Shown here: positions 29,025-55,775 of the stretch, piece by piece
How positions within the stretch are numbered: position 1 is the first letter of the stretch
Layout: every line of letters begins with the position of its first letter
From: Thiohalorhabdus sp. Cl-TMA
GTDB taxonomy: Bacteria > Pseudomonadota > Gammaproteobacteria > Thiohalorhabdales > Thiohalorhabdaceae
NCBI RefSeq assembly: GCF_041821045.1
Contig: NZ_JBGUAW010000011.1
Location: forward strand, 62,001 to 126,000
Length of the DNA: 64,000 nt
Direction of reading: 5' to 3'
Position numbers and translations under genes: made by a program
The notes under the pieces: model-generated
Databases searched by the model: none
Told to the model about the DNA's origin: nothing
The model's input: the letters and a program-made list of their open reading frames with translations, nothing else

Positions 29025-29357
29025 TCACTGGGTTTCACCGGTCCATTTATAGCTATCCACAACGCCGTTCTTTCGATACTGAATCTCCAGCATCTTGAGC
29101 TGGGCATCCGACAGTCCCGGCAGGGTCCCGGTACCGTAGTAGTAGGTCCATTCCTCCACCCGCGTTCCATCGGGTCGCACCACCTGTCCGGTGCTCACCG
29201 GCTCGCCGAGCCACTGGCGCACATCCGTGCGCTCCGTCTCGCCCACTTCGACCCGTTCCTCGAAGGCCTGAAGGTCGAAGTCCTTACCGACGTCCACCTG
29301 GGCGCACCCGGCGGCAAGCATCGCCAGCACCACCAATACCGGCAACCGACGGATCAT
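29025..29357 (-). CDS. SmpA/OmlA (BamE-like) lipoprotein
   Basis: A 110-residue lipoprotein: signal RRLPVLVVLAMLAAGC with Cys18, then a small beta-alpha domain with the SmpA/OmlA-like pattern (VEVGETERTDVRQWLGEPVS; EWTYYYGTGT). True BamE belongs to the outer-membrane assembly complex; this paralogue may have another role. GAGGGGA precedes the ATG at 29357. It is divergent from the methanol dehydrogenase operon with a 600-base spacer. Confidence 0.75.
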   Translation of the reverse strand: MIRRLPVLVVLAMLAAGCAQVDVGKDFDLQAFEERVEVGETERTDVRQWLGEPVSTGQVVRPDGTRVEEWTYYYGTGTLPGLSDAQLKMLEIQYRKNGVVDSYKWTGETQ

Positions 29358-29614
29358 TGCTGGTCCCCTCGCTTGATCGTGGAAAAGGCCGCTGTCCTGG
29401 ACTTGCCAAGCCTCGGCACTGTAGCAGAACCCGGGCCGCCGCCGGAAACCCGGAGCCCGCCGCTTTCGGACGGCTGTCTCCATCCGTTTGCCGGCGGGAA
29501 TGCCGCCCTTCCGGAACGTGCCTCCCAGATGCCCGGCCCCGGGCCGCTCCATGCGGCCGAATACCGGTTCGCCGCCGCAATCGACCTCCGCGGTGCGGAA
29601 AATTATCCAGCTCT

Positions 29615-29628
29615 GGCTATATATAGCC
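29615..29628. promoter_or_regulatory. 14-bp palindrome, candidate activator site for mxaF
   Basis: GGCTATATATAGCC is a perfect palindrome whose centre is about 86 bp upstream of the -24 GG of the sigma-54-type promoter. That is the usual distance for an enhancer-binding protein site. The AT core could also be a nucleoid-protein or other regulator site. Only position supports the assignment. Confidence 0.45.
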
Positions 29629-29706
29629 GGACAACTATGCCCATAACCCCTCCCTGAGCAAACGAAAAATAAGCTAATGCGTTGCAGAACAGGAGCTTTT
29701 GTAATT

Positions 29707-29721
29707 TGGCCCGCTACTTGC
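29707..29721 (+). promoter_or_regulatory. Sigma-54-type -24/-12 promoter upstream of mxaF
   Basis: TGGCCCG-CTAC-TTGC (followed by T) matches the sigma-54 consensus TGGCACG-N4-TTGCW with one mismatch, and has the invariant GG and GC at the right spacing, preceded by T as preferred. It is on the coding strand of mxaF, about 237 bases before the ATG. No equally good -10/-35 pair was seen. Confidence 0.65.
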
Positions 29722-29957
29722 TTAGTCCAGTAACAGGTTTTCTACCTCCGACTGCACTCGGACAACGGATTCGGGACTCGATTCTCCTGAAGAGCGAGCG
29801 GGAGAAGCCATGCCTTATATGGCCCCAATTAGAAGGCCCTGAAGGAGTGTGGGATTCAGGACTTCAATGGAATCGCCGTTCCGTATGGAGAAGCAGCAGT
29901 GCCGAAGAGCCGGAGGCGGAAGACGTGCAAACAAAATCCATGCAAGGAGGAAATGTC

Positions 29958-31841
29958 ATGGGACGTCTGACACACCGTTCGGTGTACAAGGGCTCAATGG
30001 CCCTGCTAGCCGTCTCTCTTTCCGCCTACGCGGGCACGGCCACGGCCAATGAAAAGCTGCAGGAGCTCGCGAAAAGCGAAAAGAACTGGGTGATGCAGTG
30101 CAAGAGCTACGACTGCCAGCACTTCAGTGAATCCACCCAGATCAACGCCTCCAACGTGGAGAACCTGGAGCCGGCATGGTCCTTCTCCACGGGCGTCCTC
30201 TCGGGCCACGAAGGCGCTCCCCTGGTGGTTAACGGCATGATGTACATCCACTCGCCGTACCCCAACAAGGTCTTCGCCGTCGATCTGGACAATCCCAACA
30301 AGATCGTCTGGCAATACGAGCCCAAGCAGGATCCGGCGGCGCGCTCGGTGGCCTGCTGCGACGTGGTCAACCGGGGGCTGGCCTATTATCCCGGGGAAGG
30401 AGACACCCCGCCGCTGATCATCGAGAGCACCCTGGACGGGCACCTGCTGGCGCTGAACGCCAACAACGGGGAGATGTACTGGAAGCTGGAGGTCATGGAC
30501 CCGAGCGTGGGCCAGACCCTGACCCAGTCGCCCTACGTGGTGAAGGACAAGGTGATCATCGGCTCGTCCGGAGCGGAGCTGGGCGTGCGGGGCGTGGTGA
30601 CCGCCTACGATATTAAAACCGGCGAGCAGGATTGGCGCGCCTACGCCACCGGCCCTGACAAGGACCTGCTGCTCGCCGATGACTTCAACAGCGCGAACCC
30701 ACAATACGGTCAAGAGGGCCTCGGACTCAAGACCTGGGAAGGCAACCAGTGGAAAGTGGGCGGCGGCACCAACTGGGGCTGGTACGCCTACGATCCGGAA
30801 GAGGAGCTGGTCTACTACGGCGCCGGCAACGCTGCTCCCTGGAACGAGACCATGCGCCCCGGCGACAACAAGTGGACCAACACCATCTTCGCCCGGGATG
30901 TGGATTCGGGTAAGGCCGAGTTCGCCTACCAGAAGACGCCCCACGACGAGTGGGACTACGCCGGCGTCAACGTGATGATGCTCTCCGAGCAGAAGGTCGA
31001 CGGCGAAACCAAGAAGCTGCTCACCCACCCCGACCGGAACGGCATCCTCTACTCCCTCGACCGCACCAACGGCGACCTCGTCGCGGCCGACAAGATGGAC
31101 GACACGGTGAACTGGGTGGAGCACGTCAACCTGGACACCGGCACCCCCGTCCGGGATCCCGAGTACGGCACCCGCATGGGCCACAAGACCAAGGGCATCT
31201 GCCCGTCGGCCATGGGCTACCACAACCAGGGCGTGGACTCCTACGACCCCGACAAAGAGCTGTTCTTCATCGGCATGAACCACCTGTGCATGGACTGGGA
31301 GCCCTACATGCTTCCCTACCGCGCGGGGCAGTTCTTCGTGGGCGCCAACGTCTGGACCTATCCCGGACCCAAGGGCAACCGCGAGGAGAGCACCGGTTCC
31401 GGCCAGATCAAGGCCTACGACGTCAAAACCGGCGAATTCAAGTGGTCCAAGATGGAGCGCTTCGCCGTCTGGGGCGGCACCACCGCCACCGCCGGCAATC
31501 TGGTCTTCTACGGCACCCTCGACGGCTTCATCAAGGCCCGCGACTCCCGTACCGGTGAGCTGCTGTGGAAGTACAAGCTGCCCTCCGGCGTGATCGGCCA
31601 TCCCATCACCTACAAGCACGACGGCACCCAGTACGTGGGCATCAATTACGGTGTCGGCGGCTGGCCGGGTGTGGGTCTGGTCTTCGACCTGGAGGATCCC
31701 TCCGCCGGACTCGGCGCTGTGAACGCCTTCAAGAAGCTCCAGGAGCACACCCAGATGGGTGGCGGCTTCATGGCCTTCTCGCTGGAAGGGGATACCCCGT
31801 TCGACAACGTCGACGTGGGTGAGTACCAGGCCAGCAACTGA
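29958..31841 (+). CDS. mxaF: Methanol dehydrogenase large subunit, calcium type
   Basis: A 627-residue periplasmic PQQ enzyme that oxidises methanol to formaldehyde. The signal peptide covers about residues 1-31, ending [10 protein letters not shown]. The adjacent disulfide cysteines that cover PQQ are in [12 protein letters not shown]. The catalytic Asp is D333 in [14 protein letters not shown]; the residue two positions on is Ala335, whereas lanthanide-dependent XoxF has Asp there, so this is MxaF, the calcium form. The C-terminal half is near-identical to known MxaF ([37 protein letters not shown]). AAGGAGG precedes ATG 29958. It heads the mxa operon. Confidence 0.97.
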
Positions 31842-31852
31842 GCCGCTGCATG

Positions 31853-31894
31853 CAAGAGGCCACGGGCGCGTGCCTCCGCGCGCGCCCGCTCTTG
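31853..31894 (+). other. Stable hairpin in the mxaF-mxaJ spacer
   Basis: CAAGAG at 31853-31858 pairs with CTCTTG at 31889-31894 and CGGGCGCG at 31863-31870 with CGCGCCCG at 31881-31888, with a four-base bulge between. There is no T run, so it probably does not end transcription fully. It may protect the 3' end of the mxaF message and so raise MxaF over MxaJ. Confidence 0.65.
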
Positions 31895-31926
31895 TACCCA
31901 ATTGTGCGCTTTCGGAGCTGTATCAC

Positions 31927-32790
31927 ATGAAGCATGCATTCAAATCGCTAGGTTTGGCCGCGGCGCTTCTTTGGCCGGCATTCGGCCAAGCCGCCGGCGA
32001 CATGGGCAAGGAAACCCTGCGCGTATGCGCGGCCAAGGACGAGCTGCCCTATTCCAGCGCCGAGAAAAACGGCTTCGAGAACGAGATCGCCGAGATTGTC
32101 GCCGATGCCATGAACCGGGAGCTCAAGTTCGTCTGGGCGGACCGGCCGGGCATCTACCTGGTGCCCGAATTCCTCCGGAAGGACAAGTGCGACGTGGTGA
32201 TGGGCCTGGACTCGGATGACCCACGAGTGGCGACCACGCAGCCCTATTACCGCTCCAGCTATGTCTTCGTCTACCCCGCAGACGCCGGGGTGGAGGTGAA
32301 GGACTGGGAGAGCGGTGATCTGGCGGACATGACGCGCTTCGCCGTAACGCCCTACAGCCCGGTGGAGGCCAAGCTGCGCGAAATGGGCAAGTGGCGGAAC
32401 AACCTCAACTATATGTTCTCGCTCATCGGCTACGCGTCGCGCCGTAACGAGTACGTCCGCTACGACCCGCAACGGATGATCTCGGAGGTCGCCAGCGGCA
32501 AGGCCGATATCGCCATCGTCTGGGGCCCGAAGGCCGCGCGTTACGTAAAGCAGGCCTCCCGCGAGCTGACCATGAATGTGGTCCCCGACACCCGGACCTC
32601 GGACGGTCCGGTGGTCTTCCATTACGCCCAGTCCATGGGTACCCGCAAGGAAGACAAGGCGCTGCGTGACGCGCTGAACCAGGCCATAGAGGCCCGGTAC
32701 GACAAGATCCGTTCGGTTCTGAAGGACGAAGGCTTTCCCCTACTCGGAGTCGCCGGGTCGGCGACCGCGAAAAACCATACCGGAGATTGA
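31927..32790 (+). CDS. mxaJ: Methanol oxidation protein MxaJ
   Basis: A 287-residue exported protein with a signal peptide (LGLAAALLWPAFGQA) and a bacterial extracellular solute-binding fold: LRVCAAKDELPYSS at the start, KCDVVMGLDSDDPRVATTQPYYRSSYVFV in the ligand region, and ADIAIVWGPKAARYV. MxaJ is required in other methylotrophs for methanol dehydrogenase formation and has been proposed to act as a chaperone or mediator; its ligand is unknown. The start at 31927 has GGAG nine bases upstream. Its place between mxaF and mxaG is the standard one. Confidence 0.95.
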   Translation: MKHAFKSLGLAAALLWPAFGQAAGDMGKETLRVCAAKDELPYSSAEKNGFENEIAEIVADAMNRELKFVWADRPGIYLVPEFLRKDKCDVVMGLDSDDPRVATTQPYYRSSYVFVYPADAGVEVKDWESGDLADMTRFAVTPYSPVEAKLREMGKWRNNLNYMFSLIGYASRRNEYVRYDPQRMISEVASGKADIAIVWGPKAARYVKQASRELTMNVVPDTRTSDGPVVFHYAQSMGTRKEDKALRDALNQAIEARYDKIRSVLKDEGFPLLGVAGSATAKNHTGD

Positions 32791-32796
32791 TCCTAA

Positions 32797-33330
32797 ATGA
32801 GGCAAAGCAAACGGACCCGCCTGCTGTCGGGCGTGTTTTTGGCCAGCGTCTCCCTGGCCCTCCTCTCGAGCCCCGTGCTCGCGAAGGAGATATTCCGCAA
32901 CACCGTCACCGGACAACCACTCGATCTTTCCAAGGCGGAAGTGGGCAAGAACCCGGAAGCGGTGAAGAAGTTCGAGCAAACCGGGCATAACCCTTTGAAC
33001 GGCAATGAGCAGGCCATCGAAAAGGGGGAGCGGAACTTCCTGACCGCCTGCTCGGGGTGCCACGGCCACCATGCCAAGGGGAAGATCGGCCCGTCGCTGG
33101 TTGACGATTACTGGACCTATACCACGAACGCCACCGACGCCGGCCTTTTCGCCACGATCTTCGGCGGTGCGCGTGCTCAGATGGGCCCGCACTACTCGAC
33201 GCTCACCCGGACGGAGATGCTTCAGACCATGGCCTACATCCGGAGCATCTACGAGGGCAAGGCCTCCGAGGCCGAATGGCTCACATCGAAAGAGCGCGAG
33301 GCACTGCGTGAAAAACGCGGGAACCAGTGA
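32797..33330 (+). CDS. mxaG: Cytochrome c-L, electron acceptor of methanol dehydrogenase
   Basis: A 177-residue periplasmic c-type cytochrome with a signal peptide (LASVSLALLSSPVLA) and one heme site (ACSGCHGHHAKGK). It takes electrons from PQQ in MxaFI. Downstream conserved residues DDYWTYTTNATDAGLFATIF and a candidate Met ligand in RAQMGP fit cytochrome cL rather than generic class I cytochromes. It starts six bases after mxaJ. Confidence 0.95.
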   Translation: MRQSKRTRLLSGVFLASVSLALLSSPVLAKEIFRNTVTGQPLDLSKAEVGKNPEAVKKFEQTGHNPLNGNEQAIEKGERNFLTACSGCHGHHAKGKIGPSLVDDYWTYTTNATDAGLFATIFGGARAQMGPHYSTLTRTEMLQTMAYIRSIYEGKASEAEWLTSKEREALREKRGNQ

Positions 33331-33482
33331 GTCCGGAACGGGAGCTCCGCCGCCCCGCTTCGCGGGACACGGGTGGCCGCTCTGCACACCCCGCCCGGCG
33401 GGAAACAGGAGGATCCGAAGCCATGATCCGCAGGATCGCGGGAGTTACCACCAAGCAGGAACGCACCACAGGAGGTAGGACC

Positions 33483-33779
33483 ATGAAGAGCAAGACCACC
33501 ATTCTCGGCGCTTCATTCATCACTCTGGCCGGCCTGCTGACCGTCGGCCCGGCAATGGCTTATGACGGCACCAACTGCGAGGCCCCGGGCCAGTGCTGGG
33601 AGCCCAAGCCCGGCTTCCCGGAGAAGGTCGAGGGCACCAAATACGACCCGAAGCACAAGGAAAGCGAGCTCAACAAGCAGCAGGAGTCGATCCAGGCCAT
33701 GGAGAAGCGCAACGCCATGCGCGTCGAGCACTTCAAGGAAACCGGCAACTGGGTCTACGACGTCGAGAAGCTGAAATAA
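33483..33779 (+). CDS. mxaI: Methanol dehydrogenase small subunit
   Basis: A 98-residue precursor; cleavage after AMA gives a mature chain starting YDGTNCEAPGQCWEPKPGFP, the canonical beta-subunit sequence with its disulfide pair, followed by the long charged helix KESELNKQQESIQAMEKRNA. The beta subunit wraps MxaF; its presence supports the calcium-type enzyme, since XoxF lacks it. AGGAGG precedes the ATG at 33483. A 152-nt spacer separates it from mxaG. Confidence 0.97.
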   Translation: MKSKTTILGASFITLAGLLTVGPAMAYDGTNCEAPGQCWEPKPGFPEKVEGTKYDPKHKESELNKQQESIQAMEKRNAMRVEHFKETGNWVYDVEKLK

Positions 33780-33830
33780 CGCAGCACGGAACCCCGAAGG
33801 ACAGCCATCCCCAGCGATGGTGAGCGACCC

Positions 33831-33853
33831 GGCCCCCGCCGCCGGCGGGGGCC
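33831..33853 (+). other. Strong GC hairpin between mxaI and mxaR
   Basis: GGCCCCCGCC at 33831-33840 pairs perfectly with GGCGGGGGCC at 33844-33853; CTTATTT follows two bases later. It may act as a partial terminator or RNA-stabilising stem, lowering expression of the assembly genes (mxaR onward) relative to the structural genes. Confidence 0.6.
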
Positions 33854-33900
33854 GCTTATTTCCAACGGGCCGGCCCGCCGGCCGCAAACCGGGAACGCTT

Positions 33901-34920
33901 ATGCATGAGGAGAACGTCCTCGCCGACTGGCACGCCCGGGCCACCGCGCTTGAGGAGCAGGTCAATGCGGTGATGGTGGATCAGTCGCACGCGGTCCATC
34001 TCATGCTGGTGGCAATCTTCGCGCGGGGCCACGCCCTGCTCGAGGGCGATGTCGGCGTCGGCAAGACCACGCTGCTGCGCGCCCTGGCCCGTGGCCTGGG
34101 GGGCGGGTATGAACGTCTCGAGGGAACGGTCGACCTGATGCCCTCGGACATGGTCTACCACACCTACGTCAACGAATCCGGACAGCCCTGCGTGGAGCCG
34201 GGTCCGCTGCTGCGCCACGGCCAAGGCCTGGCGACCTTCTTTTTCAACGAGATCAACCGTGCGCGGCCACAGATGCATTCGCTTCTGCTGCGGCTCATGG
34301 CCGAGCGCTCCATGGCCGCCTTCAACCGCGAGTATCACTTCCCGCACCTGCTGGTCTTCGCCGACCGCAACCGGGTGGAGCGGGAAGAGACCTTCGAGCT
34401 GCCCGCGGCGGCCCGCGATCGCTTCTTCATGGAGATCAACGTGACCATGCCGGAAGCGCGCGAGGCCCGGCGCGCCCTGATGGCGGATCCCCGCTTCCAT
34501 GACACGGACCGCCTGATCGAGGAAGTCGAGCCCGGCATCGTCGACTACACCGCCCTCAACGACCTCGCCACCACCCTGCAGCACCGGATCACGGTCAGCG
34601 AGGCCCTGCAGGACTATGCCCTCGACCTGTGGGAAGCGGTCCGCGCTCCCGCCTACCACGGCATCCACCTCGACGACGTGGACACGGAGACCCTTGTCGC
34701 CGGCGGGGGCAGCCCCCGCGGCATGAGCATGATGATCCGCGCCGCCCGCGTGCATGCCTGGCTGGCGGACCGGGCGATGGTGGTGCCGGAGGATATCCGC
34801 GCCGTATTCCTCGAAACCGCGGGCCATCGCATCTTCTTCAACCCGGTCTACGAGCTGCGGCGCGACGAGATCATCGGTCGCCTCATCGGCGCCGCACTGG
34901 AACGGGTGGCTGCGCCTTGA
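33901..34920 (+). CDS. mxaR: MoxR-family AAA+ ATPase MxaR
   Basis: A 339-residue ATPase: Walker A GDVGVGKTTLL at about residue 50, Walker B region TFFFNEINRARPQM, sensor VFADRNRVEREETFELPAAA, and a C-terminal lid. The usual Asp of Walker B (LLLDEINRA) is Asn here, while the catalytic Glu is kept. MoxR proteins work with VWA proteins in metal-cofactor insertion; the next genes supply three. The start is ATG 33901 (family-like N-terminus MHEENVLADWHARA); an open extension upstream lacks similarity. Its last base pairs overlap mxaS. Confidence 0.93.
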   Translation: MHEENVLADWHARATALEEQVNAVMVDQSHAVHLMLVAIFARGHALLEGDVGVGKTTLLRALARGLGGGYERLEGTVDLMPSDMVYHTYVNESGQPCVEPGPLLRHGQGLATFFFNEINRARPQMHSLLLRLMAERSMAAFNREYHFPHLLVFADRNRVEREETFELPAAARDRFFMEINVTMPEAREARRALMADPRFHDTDRLIEEVEPGIVDYTALNDLATTLQHRITVSEALQDYALDLWEAVRAPAYHGIHLDDVDTETLVAGGGSPRGMSMMIRAARVHAWLADRAMVVPEDIRAVFLETAGHRIFFNPVYELRRDEIIGRLIGAALERVAAP

Positions 34921-35777: not shown

Positions 35778-36685
35778 AGGCCCGGGGGCGAATTTGGGCA
35801 ATACCGCTGCTGGTCCTGGCCTCTGCATGGGCGCTGCCGGCCAACGCCGCCGGGATCGACCTCTCCGTTACCGAGCCGCGGTCCTACGGCCACGTGGCCG
35901 GCGACCGCATCGAGCGCCGGCTGCGTCTGCGGCTGCCTCCCGGATACCGCCTCGAGCGGACGTCCCTGCCCGCCACGGGCAAGGTCAACTACTGGCTGGA
36001 GCTCGCGGACATGGCGGTGGACGGCGGCGACCGGGGCGGTACGGCCCGGGTCACCCTCGGCTATCAGCTCTTCTACGCACCCCTTCAGGTGGTTCCCCGG
36101 CGCTTGCCCGCCTTCCGGATATCGGCGAGCAACGATGCCGGCGAGCGGCTGGAGGCGCGGGTACCGAGCTTCGATTTCACCATGTCGCCGCTCATAGCCC
36201 TCCGTCCCGAGGCGGAGTTCGGCGACCCGGAGAACGGGATCATGGCGGCGGACGAGCAGCCGGATCGGTTGCCGGTGGCAGAGCCGCGCCGGGGCGCGCT
36301 GACCGCTTTCGGCGTCTTCTCCCTGGCGCTCCTGCTCTGGGCCTGGGCGGCCGACCGCCTGCCGGGGCGCCGGCGCGGGCCCTTCGGGCGAGCGGTCCGA
36401 TCGCTGCGCCGACTTCGCGAATCGGACCGCGGGGCCACGGAGGCGGCCATGCGCACGCTCCACCGAGCCTTCGACGAAACGGCGGGGCATGCCGTATTCG
36501 CGGAGGACGTGGACGCATTCGTAACCACCCACCCGGCCTTCTCGGACCTGCATGACGACATCGCCGCCTTCTTCGAATCGTCGCGGCACCTGTTCTTCGC
36601 CGCGGACGACGGGCCCCGGGGCTACGAGCTCGACGAAGTGCGGGATCTGACGAGCCGCTGCCGCGCCCGCGAGCTGCGGACATGA
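35774..36685 (+). CDS. mxaA: MxaA, membrane-anchored assembly protein
   Basis: A 303-residue protein with a signal (LLVLASAWALPANA), a periplasmic beta domain up to about residue 170, a single membrane helix (GALTAFGVFSLALLLWAWAA), and a cytoplasmic helical tail (AAMRTLHRAFDETAGHAVF). MxaA is known to be required for calcium insertion in the methanol dehydrogenase of other species. The start is ATG 35774, an ATGA overlap with mxaS; it ends in another overlap with mxaC. Confidence 0.92.
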   Translation: MKARGRIWAIPLLVLASAWALPANAAGIDLSVTEPRSYGHVAGDRIERRLRLRLPPGYRLERTSLPATGKVNYWLELADMAVDGGDRGGTARVTLGYQLFYAPLQVVPRRLPAFRISASNDAGERLEARVPSFDFTMSPLIALRPEAEFGDPENGIMAADEQPDRLPVAEPRRGALTAFGVFSLALLLWAWAADRLPGRRRGPFGRAVRSLRRLRESDRGATEAAMRTLHRAFDETAGHAVFAEDVDAFVTTHPAFSDLHDDIAAFFESSRHLFFAADDGPRGYELDEVRDLTSRCRARELRT

Positions 36686-37668
36686 GCATGGGCTTCGAGC
36701 ATCCGTGGCTGCTGGCGGCGCTGCTGCTGGGGCTGCTGCCGTGGTGGCGCCTCCCCTTGCGGGAGCGGGAGCACGCCTGGACGGCCATGCTGCCCCGCGA
36801 CGGCCTCTCCCGGATCGTGGACTTCGGTCTCCGAGCCGCCGGCCTCCTGGCCGTGACCGCCCTGCTTCTGGGCCTGGGCGGACCGTACCTGGGCCAGCAA
36901 ACGGTGGAGCGCATCACACGCGGCGCCCATATCGTGCTCACGCTGGACCGCAGCCGGAGCATGGACCAGACCTTCGCGGGCAGCAATCCGCAGGGCGGCG
37001 AGGAATCCAAGAGCGATACGGCGCGCCGGCTGCTTTCCGCCTTCATCGAGCGCCGCGAGCACGACCTGTTCGGCGTGGTGACCTTCAGCACCCGGCCCAT
37101 GCCGGTACTGCCGCTCACCGACGACCAGGCGGCCGTGCGCGCCGCCGTGCGGGCCGCGGCCACCCCAGGGCTCGCCTTCACCAACGTGGCCCTGGGCCTC
37201 CAGAGCGCGCTTTCCTATTTCGAGGATTCCCGGCCCAGCGCCTCTCGGGCCGTGGTGCTCCTCTCCGACGGCGCCGCGGAGATCGACTTCAGCAGCGCCG
37301 CCCGGCTGCGCACGCTCTTCGCGCGCGACAACGTCGCGCTCTACTGGATCTTCCTGCGCACTGAGGGCAGCCCCGGCCTGGAGCCGCATCCCGGAGCGCC
37401 GGGCAGCGATAAGGCCGAGGTGCTTCCGGAGCAGAAGCTGCACCGCTTCTTCAAGAGCCTGGACACCCCATACCACGCCTACGAGGCGGAGAACCCGGAG
37501 GCCCTGGCCCGGGCCATCGAGGATATCGGCCGCCTGGAATCGCAGCCGCTGGTCTACGAGCAGCGCATTCCCCGTCAGGATCTCAGCGGCTTGTTCTTCG
37601 GGCTCGCCGGGGCGCTGCTGCTGTTGCTGGTGGCCGCCAAAGCCATGCAAAGGGAGCTGGTGGCATGA
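36682..37668 (+). CDS. mxaC: MxaC, VWA-domain membrane protein
   Basis: A 328-residue protein with an N-terminal helix (HPWLLAALLLGLLPWW), a second helix at about residues 51-71, a VWA domain facing the periplasm with MIDAS LDRSRSMDQT and SRAVVLLSDGAAEIDF, and a C-terminal helix (GLFFGLAGALLLLLVA). BatA-like; part of the calcium-insertion set with MxaA, K and L. Starts ATG 36682 in a 4-base overlap with mxaA. Confidence 0.92.
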   Translation: MSMGFEHPWLLAALLLGLLPWWRLPLREREHAWTAMLPRDGLSRIVDFGLRAAGLLAVTALLLGLGGPYLGQQTVERITRGAHIVLTLDRSRSMDQTFAGSNPQGGEESKSDTARRLLSAFIERREHDLFGVVTFSTRPMPVLPLTDDQAAVRAAVRAAATPGLAFTNVALGLQSALSYFEDSRPSASRAVVLLSDGAAEIDFSSAARLRTLFARDNVALYWIFLRTEGSPGLEPHPGAPGSDKAEVLPEQKLHRFFKSLDTPYHAYEAENPEALARAIEDIGRLESQPLVYEQRIPRQDLSGLFFGLAGALLLLLVAAKAMQRELVA

Positions 37669-38243
37669 CCATTCGACGGATATTGCGCTCCGCCGCTCTG
37701 GCCGTGGCCCTGGCAGCGGCGGGGATCTCCGCCTGGCAAGGCTGGCAATGGCTGCATAACGCCCATCAGAACGAGCGCATCCGGAAGGTCCTCGCCCATG
37801 CGGATGTGCGGATCACCCCGGAGGCGCCCCTGGCGGTCCTGTTCGCGCGGGGCTATGGCGAAGGCGAGCTCGAGCGCTATCGCGAGGCCCGCTCCGCCTA
37901 TCAGACCATCTGGATCCGAACAGACGGCGGCCGCCGGGGGGATCCCCGCGATTACGCCGTACGGGCGCGCTACAACCTCGCCAACCTCTATCTGCGGCGC
38001 GCCACGGAACGGGCCCGCAACGGCGAGGTGGACGGCGCCCGCACCATGGCCGAGCTCGCCAAGGAGGCGTACCGGGACGCCCTGCGGGCGCGGCCCGCCT
38101 ACTGGGCCGCCAAGCGCAACTTCGAGGCCGCTCAACGGCTGGTGCGCGATCTGCCGAACAGCCAGGGCACCCCGGAGGAGGGCGCGGAGCCCAAAGAGGA
38201 CGTCTGGTCGCAGATGCCGGGATTCCCGCGGGGGGAGCCGTGA
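37665..38243 (+). CDS. mxaK: MxaK, TPR-like membrane protein
   Basis: A 192-residue protein with an N-terminal membrane helix (AALAVALAAAGISAWQGWQW), then helical TPR-like repeats (ARYNLANLYLRRATERARNG, then AKEAYRDALRARPAYWAAKR) in the periplasm. MxaK is part of the assembly machinery; BatB/C/D-type systems use similar TPR partners with VWA proteins. Overlaps both neighbours by four bases. Confidence 0.9.
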   Translation: MTIRRILRSAALAVALAAAGISAWQGWQWLHNAHQNERIRKVLAHADVRITPEAPLAVLFARGYGEGELERYREARSAYQTIWIRTDGGRRGDPRDYAVRARYNLANLYLRRATERARNGEVDGARTMAELAKEAYRDALRARPAYWAAKRNFEAAQRLVRDLPNSQGTPEEGAEPKEDVWSQMPGFPRGEP

Positions 38244-39316
38244 GCCTCCGCAGCACCTTCACCGATATCCGCTTATGGCTGCTGCTCGCCGCCCTCCTGC
38301 TGGCACTCGCCACCTTCCTGGTGCCCCGCTGGCCCATGCGCCAGCCGGTCTACAGCACGCTGTTCGTGGTCGACATCACCCGCAGCATGAACGTGGCGGA
38401 TTACCGCGTCGCCGGCGAATCCGTCACCAGACTGGAGCGTGCCAAGCAGGCCGTGGCCCAGGCCGTATCGCGCCTGCCCTGCGGCTCGCGGGCGGGGCTG
38501 GCGCTGTTCACCGAGCGCACCATCAACATCACGCTCATGCCGGTGGAGGTATGCGGCAGCTTCAACAGCCTCCAGGCCAGCATCGAGCAGATCGACTGGC
38601 GCATGGCCTGGGCCGCGGACAGCAACATCAACCGGGGCCTGTACTACGGCATACAGCTCGTGCGGGACCTGCGCGGCCAGCCGGCCGTCGACGAGCGTAC
38701 CGCGCTGGTGCTCCTCACCGACGGCCATGAGGCGCCCCCGGTGAACCCGCGTTACGAGCCCGACCCCGCCGAGCTGGTTCCCGGCAAGAAGCCCGATGCC
38801 CTCGGCGCCCCGCCGCCGGACGCCCCCCCGCTCCACGGCGTGCTCGTGGGCGTGGGGGGATATGAGCCGGCCCCGATCCCCAAATTCAACGCCCAGGGCG
38901 AGCGCATCGGCGTCTACGGCCCGGACGACGTGCAGCAGTCCTCCAAGTTCGGCCAGCCGAAAAACCCCGAGGAGATCGAGGGCTACGTGCCCCGCAACGC
39001 GCCCTGGGGACGGCACAAGAAGACCGGCAGCGAGCACCTCTCCGCGGTGCGCGAGAGCCATCTGCAGTCCCTGGCGGCAAAGGCCGGCTTCGAGTACCTG
39101 CACCTGGAAGACCACGCCGCGCTCTATCAGGCGCTGACCCCCACCGATTGGGCGGACCTCCGCATGCGGCGCACCGATATCCGCTGGCTGCCCGCCGCGG
39201 CCGCGTTGTCGGCCCTGATCCTGGTCTACGTCCTGACCATTTTCGGCGACCTGCAACGCGCACGACTCTTCACAGCACACAAATCCCGCGTTTCGCGAAA
39301 GGAAAGGAGCAACTGA
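38240..39316 (+). CDS. mxaL: MxaL, VWA-domain membrane protein
   Basis: A 358-residue protein with an N-terminal helix (LLLAALLLALATFLVP), a VWA domain with a MIDAS of the D-x-T-x-S form (FVVDITRSMNVADY) and LVLLTDGHEAPP, and a C-terminal helix (WLPAAAALSALILVYVLTIF). The start is GTG 38240 (GTGA overlap with mxaK) after GGGGGAG. With MxaC it gives two membrane VWA proteins that may form a heteromeric calcium-loading complex. Confidence 0.92.
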   Translation: MSLRSTFTDIRLWLLLAALLLALATFLVPRWPMRQPVYSTLFVVDITRSMNVADYRVAGESVTRLERAKQAVAQAVSRLPCGSRAGLALFTERTINITLMPVEVCGSFNSLQASIEQIDWRMAWAADSNINRGLYYGIQLVRDLRGQPAVDERTALVLLTDGHEAPPVNPRYEPDPAELVPGKKPDALGAPPPDAPPLHGVLVGVGGYEPAPIPKFNAQGERIGVYGPDDVQQSSKFGQPKNPEEIEGYVPRNAPWGRHKKTGSEHLSAVRESHLQSLAAKAGFEYLHLEDHAALYQALTPTDWADLRMRRTDIRWLPAAAALSALILVYVLTIFGDLQRARLFTAHKSRVSRKERSN

Positions 39317-52183: not shown

Positions 52184-53704
52184 CTAGAACAGGCCCAGCG
52201 CCTTGCTGGAATAGCTCACCAGCAGGTTCTTGGTCTGCTGATAGTGGTCGAGCATCATCTGGTGGTTCTCCCGGCCGATGCCCGACTGCTTATACCCACC
52301 GAAGGCGGCGTGGGCCGGATACTGGTGGTAGCAGTTGGTCCACACGCGGCCAGCCTGGATGCCCCGTCCCATACGGTAGGCGGTGTTCATGTCGCGGGTC
52401 CAGACACCGGCGCCCAGCCCGTACAGGGTATCGTTGGAGATCTCCAGGGCGTCGTCCATGTCCTTGAAGCTGGTCACGGAGACCACCGGGCCGAAGATCT
52501 CCTCCTGGAAGATCCGCATCCGGTTGTTGCCCTCGAAGATGGTCGGCCGCACGTAGAAGCCGCCGGCCAGATCGCCCTCGCCCTCGAAGGGCTCGCCGCC
52601 GGCCAGCACTTTGGCGCCTTCCTCCTTGCCGATGGCCAGGTAGGACAGGATCTTCTCCTGCTGGTCGCGGGAGGCCTGGGCCCCCACCTGGGTATCCGTG
52701 TCCAGGGGGTTGCCCTGCTTCAGCGCCTGCGTACGGGCCACGGCGCCTTCCATGAACTGGTCGTAGAAGCGCTCCTGCACCAGTCCCCGGGACGGGCAGG
52801 TACAGACCTCGCCCTGGTTGAGGGCGAACATGGCAAAGCCTTCCAGGGACTTGTCGGCGAAATCGTCCTGCTCGGAGAAGCAGTCGGAGAAGAAGACGTT
52901 GGGCGACTTGCCGCCCAGCTCCAGGGTGACCGGGATCAGGTTCTCCGAGGCCGACTGCATGATCAGGCGCCCGGTGGTGGTCTCGCCGGTGAAGGCCAGC
53001 TTGGCCACGCGCGGGCTGGTGGCCAGGGGCTTGCCCGCCTCGGCGCCGAAGCCGTTCACCACGTTGACCACGCCGGCCGGCAGCAGGTCCTGGAGCATCT
53101 CCATGAGGAGGAGAATGGAGGCGGGCGTCTGCTCGGCCGGCTTCAGCACCACGCAGTTACCGGCGGCCAGCGCCGGAGCCAGCTTCCAGGTGGCCATCAG
53201 GATCGGGAAGTTCCAGGGGATGATCTGCCCCACTACCCCGAGCGGCTCCTTGAAGTGGTAGGCCACGGTGTCGTTGTCCAGCTCGCTGATGCCGCCTTCC
53301 TGGGCGCGGATGGCGCCGGCGAAATAGCGATAGTGGTCGATGGCCAGGGGAATGTCGGCGGCCAGGCACTCGCGCACGGGCTTGCCGTTATCCCAGGTCT
53401 CCGCCACCGCCAGCTGCTCCAGATTCGCTTCCATGCGGTCGGCGATGCGGTTTAGCAGGTTGGCCCGCTCGGCGGGGGAGGTGATGCTCCAGGACGCCTT
53501 GGCGGCGTGGGCGGCATCCAGGGCCCGCTCGACGTCATCGGCGGTGGAGCGCGGAATCTCGCAGAAGGTCTGCCCGGTTACCGGGGTGGGGTTGCCGAAA
53601 TAGTTGCCCTTCGCCGGCGCCACCCACTCGCCGCCGATGAAGTTCTCGTAGCGGCTCTTGTAGGAAACGACGGCATCGGCCGATCCAGGTGCCGAGTAGA
53701 GCAT
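52184..53704 (-). CDS. NAD(P)-dependent aldehyde dehydrogenase (AldB/ExaC type)
   Basis: A 506-residue aldehyde dehydrogenase: [20 protein letters not shown] for nucleotide binding, [15 protein letters not shown], general base Glu in [13 protein letters not shown], catalytic Cys in [11 protein letters not shown], and [11 protein letters not shown]. Start [21 protein letters not shown] is typical of the acetaldehyde-dehydrogenase group used in ethanol oxidation. It sits behind a sigma-54-type promoter and is divergent from an activator of the acetoin/ethanol type, so it likely oxidises acetaldehyde or another short aldehyde. Confidence 0.93.
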
Positions 53705-53757
53705 GGCTTCTCCTCCTTGGTATTTCAGCTATGATGGGGACTTCCGGAACAACCGGG

Positions 53758-53772
53758 GCAAGAAGCGTTCCA
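53758..53772 (-). promoter_or_regulatory. Sigma-54-type promoter for the aldehyde dehydrogenase gene
   Basis: On the minus strand the sequence is TGGAACG-CTTC-TTGC, matching TGGCACG-N4-TTGC with one mismatch and with the essential GG and GC. The predicted start near 53747 leaves a leader of about 43 nt. A short inverted repeat GTTCC-N9-GGAAC (53767-53785) overlaps the -24 side. Confidence 0.7.
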
Positions 53773-53840
53773 AAGCTTTCGGAACCCGGGAACAACGATC
53801 CAATCTCCTGATTTTTCGGGCCCTGAGAAAGCACCCTGCA

Positions 53841-53858
53841 TTCGGTTTGCCGACCGAA
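53841..53858. promoter_or_regulatory. Inverted repeat TTCGGT-N6-ACCGAA, candidate activator site
   Basis: A perfect 6-bp inverted repeat with a six-base spacer lies about 70-90 bp upstream of the -24 element of the dehydrogenase promoter and about 80 bases before the activator gene. This is a standard place for the upstream activating site of an enhancer-binding protein. Confidence 0.55.
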
Positions 53859-53936
53859 GGGCCGCCATGCCGCTTCCAGGTGTTGCAAATTGCGATAGCG
53901 GCGTTGCGGCACGCGACAGCCGGAAGGAGAGAGGCC

Positions 53937-55775
53937 ATGGGAACGCTGAACGGTACCTACGGTTCGGGTCGGAAACCCTTTCGGAAACGGGACGAGACCG
54001 CCGGCCTCGAACCGGTTATCGAGCGTTCCTGGCGGCGCTGCGCGGCGGACGGGCTGGATATGGCGGGCCGGGCCGACGACGCGGTGTACGGCGGCACCGA
54101 GCTGAAGCAGCGGCGGGAGCGGCAGGAGCACCTGGTGGCTTACGCCCTTCCGGAGCTGGAGAACATCCGCCAGCAGATCGCCCACACCAACAGCACCGTG
54201 ATCCTCACCGACGCCGAAGGCGTTCTGCTCCAGCGCCTGGGTGACGCGGAGTTCCACCGCCGGGCCGAGACGGTGGCCCTCCAGCCCGGCGCCTGCTGGA
54301 ACGAGAGCGCGCGCGGCACCAACGCCATCGGTACCGCCATCACCGAGCGCCTTCCGGTGAACGTGCACCGCGGCGAGCACTACCTGGAATGCAACGCCTT
54401 CCTCACCTGCGCCGCCTCACCCATTCTGGATCCCGCCGGCTCGCTCATCGGGATTCTGGACATCTCCGGGGACCAGGATGCCCGGCAGATGCACAGCCTC
54501 GGTCTGGTGCAGATGTCCACCACCATGATCGAGAACCGTCTCCTGGAGGAGCACTTCGACGAGGCCCTTTACCTCTATTTTCACCCGCGTCCGGAATTCC
54601 TCGGCACCCTGGGCCAGGGCATCGCCGCCTTCGCCGGTGACGGCCGACTCCTGGCCACCAATACCTGCGCCCGGCGGCTCCTCGACCTGACGAGCACCAT
54701 CCACGGATGTACGGGCTTCGAGGACCTGTTCGGCGTGCCCCTCGAGTGGATATTCCGGTGCCCGGGCGAAACGGGGCCGAACCTGGAGACCCCTTCCGGA
54801 ATCCGCCTCCACACCCGGACCCGTCTCCGCCAGCCCCATGCCCGACCGACTCCCATTCCCTCGCCCCTTCCCACCACCGGCCGCATCGAGCACGGCGATC
54901 CGACCGTGGCCACCGCGGCGGAGCGCGCCCATCGCGTACTGACCCGGGATATCCCCGTTCTGATCGAGGGAGAGACCGGGACCGGCAAGGAGCATCTGGC
55001 CCGCATGCTGCACGACTACGGACCCCGCGCCGACGGCGCCTTCGTGGCCATCAACTGTGCCGCCCTGCCGGAATCGCTCATCGAATCGGAGCTGTTCGGC
55101 TACGTGCCGGGGGCGTTCACGGGGGCCAAGCGCGAGGGGCAGACCGGCAAGCTGGTGGAGGCGGACGGCGGGACGCTCTTCCTGGACGAGATCGGCGACA
55201 TGCCCCTTCCCCTGCAGAGCCGTCTGCTGCGCGTTCTGCAGGACAAGCAGGTGGTTCCCGTGGGGGGCAACCAGCCCCGGCCCGTGTCGTTCTCCCTGGT
55301 CAGCGCCACCCACCGCGATCTGCGTGCACTGGTGGCGGCGGGCGAGTTCCGCTCCGACCTTTACTACCGGCTGAACGGTCTCCAGGTGGAGATGCCGCCC
55401 CTTCGCAGGCGCCGCGACCTCTCCCGGCTCATCCACGCGCTACTGGCGGAGGAGGATCCCGAGGCCCGCATCTGCCCGGAAGCCCTGGAGCTGATGCTCG
55501 GCCATCCGTGGCCGGGCAACTGCCGGCAGCTCTCCTTCGTGCTGCGTACCGCGCTGGCCCTGCGCGACGACGCCGAGCCGCTGGAACCGCGGCATCTGCC
55601 CGGTGATTTCCACAAGGATCTGACCGGCAGGGACGAGGAGTGCGGCAGCAGCCTGCAGGCCGTAACCGATCAGGTCATCCGGGAAGCGGTGGAGGCAAAC
55701 GGCGGCAATGTCAGCGCCGCCGCGCGCGCCCTGGGCATCAACCGCAGCACCATCTACCGGCGGCTGCAGCGCTGA
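53937..55775 (+). CDS. Sigma-54-dependent activator (AcoR-like)
   Basis: A 612-residue bacterial enhancer-binding protein. The N-terminus (about residues 25-210) matches the AcoR-type sensor (ERSWRRCAADGLDM, and the GAF region HTNSTVILTDAEGVLLQRLG, GACWNESARGTNAIGTAITE). The central AAA+ domain has Walker A GETGTGKE (about 345), the sigma-54 contact loop GAFTGAKREG, and DEIGDMPLPLQSRLLRVLQD. A Fis-type helix-turn-helix ends it (VSAARALGI-type: AARALGINRSTIYRRLQR). AAGGAGA precedes ATG 53937. It likely activates the divergent aldehyde dehydrogenase operon, and perhaps other sigma-54 promoters. Confidence 0.93.
   Translation: MGTLNGTYGSGRKPFRKRDETAGLEPVIERSWRRCAADGLDMAGRADDAVYGGTELKQRRERQEHLVAYALPELENIRQQIAHTNSTVILTDAEGVLLQRLGDAEFHRRAETVALQPGACWNESARGTNAIGTAITERLPVNVHRGEHYLECNAFLTCAASPILDPAGSLIGILDISGDQDARQMHSLGLVQMSTTMIENRLLEEHFDEALYLYFHPRPEFLGTLGQGIAAFAGDGRLLATNTCARRLLDLTSTIHGCTGFEDLFGVPLEWIFRCPGETGPNLETPSGIRLHTRTRLRQPHARPTPIPSPLPTTGRIEHGDPTVATAAERAHRVLTRDIPVLIEGETGTGKEHLARMLHDYGPRADGAFVAINCAALPESLIESELFGYVPGAFTGAKREGQTGKLVEADGGTLFLDEIGDMPLPLQSRLLRVLQDKQVVPVGGNQPRPVSFSLVSATHRDLRALVAAGEFRSDLYYRLNGLQVEMPPLRRRRDLSRLIHALLAEEDPEARICPEALELMLGHPWPGNCRQLSFVLRTALALRDDAEPLEPRHLPGDFHKDLTGRDEECGSSLQAVTDQVIREAVEANGGNVSAAARALGINRSTIYRRLQR

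Follow-up and report, generated by a model that had tools for sequence, protein, structure and literature searches.

The mxa operon of Thiohalorhabdus sp. Cl-TMA, which encodes a methanol dehydrogenase, is preceded by a sequence resembling a -24/-12 promoter, raising the question of whether the operon is under sigma-54 (RpoN) control and, if so, which activator would act on it. In textbooks, mxa regulation exemplifies response-regulator control and the lanthanide switch. The window analysed here is the whole 64-kb stretch of DNA that contains the operon, and its relevant features around mxaF are listed below.

29501..29518, + strand: weak dyad-like stretch TGCCGCCCTTCCGGAACG, with CTTCCGGAAC common to the dyad before xoxF of the same genome
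29615..29628, no strand: 14-bp perfect palindrome GGCTATATATAGCC, possible activator site (putative role)
29707..29725, + strand: sigma-54-type -24/-12 promoter element TGGCCCGCTACTTGCTTAG (motif match and weighted score)
29733..29957, + strand: predicted mxaF leader, about 225 nt (from the predicted start to the ATG)
29958..31841, + strand: mxaF, methanol dehydrogenase large subunit, 627 aa (81-82% to Salinisphaera MxaF)
31759..32790, + strand: mxaJ (SBP_bac_3 family match; name from operon position)
32797..33330, + strand: mxaG, cytochrome c (family match; name from operon position)
33327..33779, + strand: mxaI, methanol dehydrogenase beta subunit (family match)
33817..34920, + strand: mxaR, MoxR-type AAA (family match)
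36682..37668, + strand: VWA-domain protein of the mxa operon (homologues in mxa operons of other genera)
38240..39316, + strand: VWA-domain protein of the mxa operon (homologues in mxa operons of other genera)

The mxaJ reading frame as listed overlaps the end of mxaF, and its true start is probably later. A small lipoprotein-like gene, weakly BamE-like (below the family cut-off), is divergent to mxaF (29025-29358, minus strand), and similar small open frames were seen by eye before mxaF at two other loci (L032 and L033).

The -24/-12 element and its genomic context

The sequence-only reading had proposed that TGGCCCG-CTAC-TTGC fits the -24/-12 consensus with one mismatch and exact spacing, and this was confirmed at 29707-29721, where GG-N10-GC is exact and a single mismatch separates the site from TGGCACG-N4-TTGC. 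The mxaF ATG (29958) lies 251 bp downstream of the element. With a weighted consensus, whose weights and threshold scores were set by hand after the window site had been seen, the element obtained the top score (19.6) among all positions on both strands of the window, which exceeds 18.96, the 99th percentile reached by the top site of random 600-bp stretches. Consensus matches with at most one mismatch were not significantly enriched in the window (3 against 1.64 expected, with 26 of 100 shuffles reaching 3), and their genome-wide excess was slight (499 against 422 in the reversed control). A sigma-70-like promoter was searched for at 29350-29960 and none was found. Based on the position of the element, transcription of mxa would start at about 29732-29733. 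An RNA element in the resulting leader was considered and rejected, as an Rfam search at E values up to 1 gave no match.

The genome, a 3.74-Mb draft, encodes one RpoN (Sigma54_DBD match, E 7.5e-69) and has 20 Sigma54_activat matches, of which about 17 are strong. Exact TGGCNCG-N4-TTGC sites numbered 19, two of them preceding genes that a family search identified as classical RpoN targets (for FliK and for a hydrogenase maturation protease), while the open frame at another (L038) had no family match. Across 131 upstream segments of the genome, three sites scored at least 19, against 0.45 for permuted motifs, a control that measures enrichment over composition rather than over other regions of RpoN genomes. 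These three were the mxaF site and two sites in the fae contig region.

That contig (C6) carries a C1 cluster comprising xoxF, homologues of pqqB, pqqC and pqqE (the last named solely by its position and length), together with a TonB receptor, fae and a GAF-type activator, with sigma-54-like sites before fae and before the TonB receptor. The fae-linked activator (C6, 76.4-78.4 kb) possesses a GAF domain, an AAA+ domain with GAFTGA and a Fis-type HTH, and its paralogue (63%) is located at 177-179 kb of the same contig, in an H4MPT gene neighbourhood that includes mch and a second fae. A dyad lies 81 bp before the sigma-54-like site of xoxF, which scores only 17.2, and a degenerate dyad lies 58 bp before that of fae. 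Near fae, sigma-54-like sites were also observed before a zinc-binding-type chemoreceptor gene (L092:15254-15272) and before a histidine kinase gene (L092:18651-18669, minus strand). An NtrC-type activator at 83 kb of C6, also near fae, was set aside, as it has a receiver domain and no exact GAFTGA.

Activator clade and mxaF upstream regions in other bacteria

The fae-linked activator was matched at E values up to 1e-140 in 19 of 369 genomes of the class, the Thiohalorhabdus genome included. Among the 18 clade neighbourhoods fetched, nine contained H4MPT genes (DUF6513 or AfpA homologues), five contained pqq or XoxF-like genes, and four, one of them on a 3-kb contig, contained neither. The 202 upstream segments of clade loci held 18 sites scoring at least 19; permuted motifs gave 0.53 (at most 3) and the reversed motif none. 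The dyad TGTNAC-N6-GTNACA, at 9 or 10 of 10 positions, occurred 19 times (32 loci, 553 kb), and 11 of these occurrences lay 40-220 bp upstream of a sigma-54 site, against 0.88 expected; the dyad had first been noticed in Advenella, Pollutimonas, the congeneric genome G002 and one other locus, some of which are among the 11, and the loci not used to define it were L132, L135 (two), L137, L142 and L188. Included in the 11 are L132, L135 and L142, where the dyad and sigma-54 sites precede the activator gene itself. In G002, which possesses xoxF, the activator has an orthologue (54%) adjoining fae and ftr, and strong or fair sigma-54 sites precede fae and xoxF. The other congeneric genome examined (G001) gave no MxaF/XoxF match and no full-length match to the activator, and mxaF is missing from both.

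Among 41 regions upstream of mxaF at other loci, four, representing three genera, had sites scoring at least 19, against 0.23 in shuffled sequences and 0.25 for permuted motifs. They belonged to Pollutimonas, two Advenella and G746, the Advenella pair being close kin; in the whole comparison, L006 and L025 have identical upstream letters, L018 and L019 are one species, and L028 (of 27 loci) was dropped as it had no upstream DNA. The remaining 37 regions had no strong site. All four genomes that carry a sigma-54 site before mxaF encode a close homologue of the activator (E below 1e-160), as do 4 of 12 that lack such a site. The dyad before mxaF was matched at 10 of 10 positions in the Advenella regions and 9 of 10 in Pollutimonas. 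In Pollutimonas the activator stands where the mxa operon ends, some 1.9 kb past the last mxa homologue, and in Advenella it lies beside pqqB, pqqC and pqqE homologues on the contig that, judged by its matching length, carries mxaF. In G746, an NtrC-type response regulator gene (L191:14433-15881, minus strand) is directly upstream of mxaF with the sigma-54 site between them, and the clade member of this genome reads GAFTDA instead of GAFTGA.

Alcaligenes and Paenalcaligenes have kept the mxa-pqq-activator cluster (activators at L193:6852-8816, plus strand, and L194:16810-18804, minus strand). Their activators, which form a long branch in the tree, have lost the GAFTGA loop and carry DK in place of DE in Walker B, with the HTH kept, and no strong sigma-54 site was found in their mxaF regions. 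A switch away from sigma-54 is probable from these sequences, and the loss of both GAFTGA and promoter element makes the pair a natural experiment.

Salinisphaera, the nearest relative by MxaF, had no sigma-54 site before mxaF in any of three loci and carries a LuxR-type response regulator gene divergent to and upstream of mxaF; its genomes possess clade activators and sigma-54 sites before pqq genes.

Probable sigma-54 control and candidate activators

Not every claim of the sequence-only reading holds, but for its central one, that sigma-54 controls mxa, the comparison of genome sequences provides good support. Such control is likely, because strong sites precede mxaF in other genera, clade activators reside in C1/PQQ clusters, dyads pair with sigma-54 sites, the Pollutimonas activator adjoins the mxa operon, and loop and site were lost jointly in Alcaligenes and Paenalcaligenes. 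The mxaFJGIR operon would be transcribed from the RpoN promoter at 29707-29725 and would therefore need an ATP-driven enhancer-binding activator with a direct metabolite sensor. This activator may be one of the two GAF-type clade members on C6, either the fae-linked one or its paralogue, and may respond to methanol, formaldehyde or a related signal. Under sigma-54 control, mxa promoters would be silent without inducer, and the system would provide a new C1-responsive sensor.

The fae-linked activator leads as candidate for mxaF, but the clade dyad before mxaF in the window is not convincing: its strict form matched at 6 of 10 positions, and a loosened form, defined after fae and xoxF had been seen, matched at 8 of 10 (29501..29518; P(best>=8) 0.48, not significant). 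A different activator, binding at the palindrome or elsewhere, is thus possible. The perfect 14-bp palindrome described in the sequence-only reading is present at 29615-29628, but the enhancer role proposed for it was not supported, such palindromes being near chance in the window (12 against 8.5 expected). That the sigma-54 promoter is real and its activator a protein from outside the C1 clade, bound at GGCTATATATAGCC, appears doubtful. The palindrome stands 79 bp before the -24 element, a usual distance for an enhancer, the local probability of a palindrome in the 154 bp before the promoter is about 0.016, and G746 has another type of activator beside mxaF; yet the core of GGCTATATATAGCC is a TA repeat, its exact sequence occurs once in the genome, it was not seen at the other mxaF genes examined, and loose matches (at most two mismatches) were fewer, at 4 per strand, than the 7 given by the reversed pattern as a control. 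A palindrome common to the mxaF, fae and TonB-receptor promoters was rejected, as each has a different one. The Thiohalorhabdus activator most similar to the mxa-linked response regulator of G746 (48%) was also rejected, no link to mxa being drawn because it adjoins pilus genes, among them a 567-aa frame that is presumably pilB; the 19.5-kb mxaF locus of G746 has no homologue of Thiohalorhabdus pilC, pilD, pilS or this frame.

It is unlikely that the -24/-12 element is a chance match and that a two-component response regulator acts on mxa at a sigma-70-type promoter, as it does in Methylotuvimicrobium and Methylobacterium and apparently also in Salinisphaera. The regulator gene and missing sigma-54 site of Salinisphaera, the regulators published for mxa and a window-wide match count not above chance are consistent with this reading, whereas the position and score of the site, the independent sigma-54 mxa promoters elsewhere and the failure to find a sigma-70-like promoter argue against it. 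Moreover, no regulator conserved with Salinisphaera was found: the best homologue of its mxa-linked response regulator in the Thiohalorhabdus genome reached 32%, and no LuxR-type response regulator divergent to mxaF is present in the window, where the neighbours are the lipoprotein-like gene and an SDF transporter.

The sequence-only reading had also pointed to a sigma-54 activator at 53.9 kb of the window, where the following features were found.

53703..55775, + strand: AcoR-like GAF-AAA-Fis activator with GAFTGA motif (GAF, Sigma54_activat and HTH_8 matches)
53754..53772, - strand: sigma-54-like site TGGAACGCTTCTTGCCCCG, about 50 bp before an aldehyde dehydrogenase gene (52184-53704, minus strand)

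The activator is indeed present, its true start probably lying near 53937, but a role in mxa control was not supported and is very unlikely. It shares the window with mxa, has an intact GAFTGA and carries a GAF sensor, as in alcohol-responsive activators; however, it is divergent to an aldehyde dehydrogenase/DUF779 pair that has a sigma-54-like site to itself, and its place in the tree is among other activators, outside the C1/PQQ clades. It was consequently rejected as first choice for mxa and more probably regulates the aldehyde dehydrogenase. The 52184-55775 region is probably a self-contained sigma-54 aldehyde module.

With sigma-54 control of mxa as the preferred reading, a wider sigma-54 regulon for methanol and quinoprotein-alcohol oxidation appears moderately probable in several proteobacterial genera: the GAF-type clade encoded in H4MPT/pqq/mxa clusters would bind TGTNAC-N6-GTNACA and act at -24/-12 promoters to drive xoxF, fae, pqq and, in certain lineages, mxa. 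In Alcaligenes-type bacteria, both the loop through which the activator contacts sigma-54 and the sigma-54 site of mxaF would have been lost.

Comparison with known systems

The sequence-only reading had called sigma-54 control of methanol dehydrogenase unusual. No earlier description of a sigma-54 mxa promoter was found in the literature searched, which covered few of the subscription journals. A GAF-modulated sigma-54-specific regulator is drawn in a methanol dehydrogenase gene cluster in a figure legend (PMC11845868); the likeness lies in a similar regulator beside methanol dehydrogenase genes, given there as a gene label alone, without promoter or binding site. For Methylosinus sporium, nitrogen genes are reported to have RpoN sites (PMC12403871). 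Sigma-54-driven methane monooxygenase also concerns a C1 oxidation operon, but not methanol dehydrogenase. BmoR of Thauera butanivorans, as described (PMC6366067, PMC8784404), is likewise a sigma-54-dependent, alcohol-responsive activator before an oxidation operon, but it controls an alkane monooxygenase. The published MxaB/MxaY, MxcQE and MxbDM systems (PMC5018670) also regulate transcription of mxaF and its operon, but they are response-regulator circuits, whereas Thiohalorhabdus has a -24/-12 promoter element before mxaF and no close homologue of the Salinisphaera regulator.
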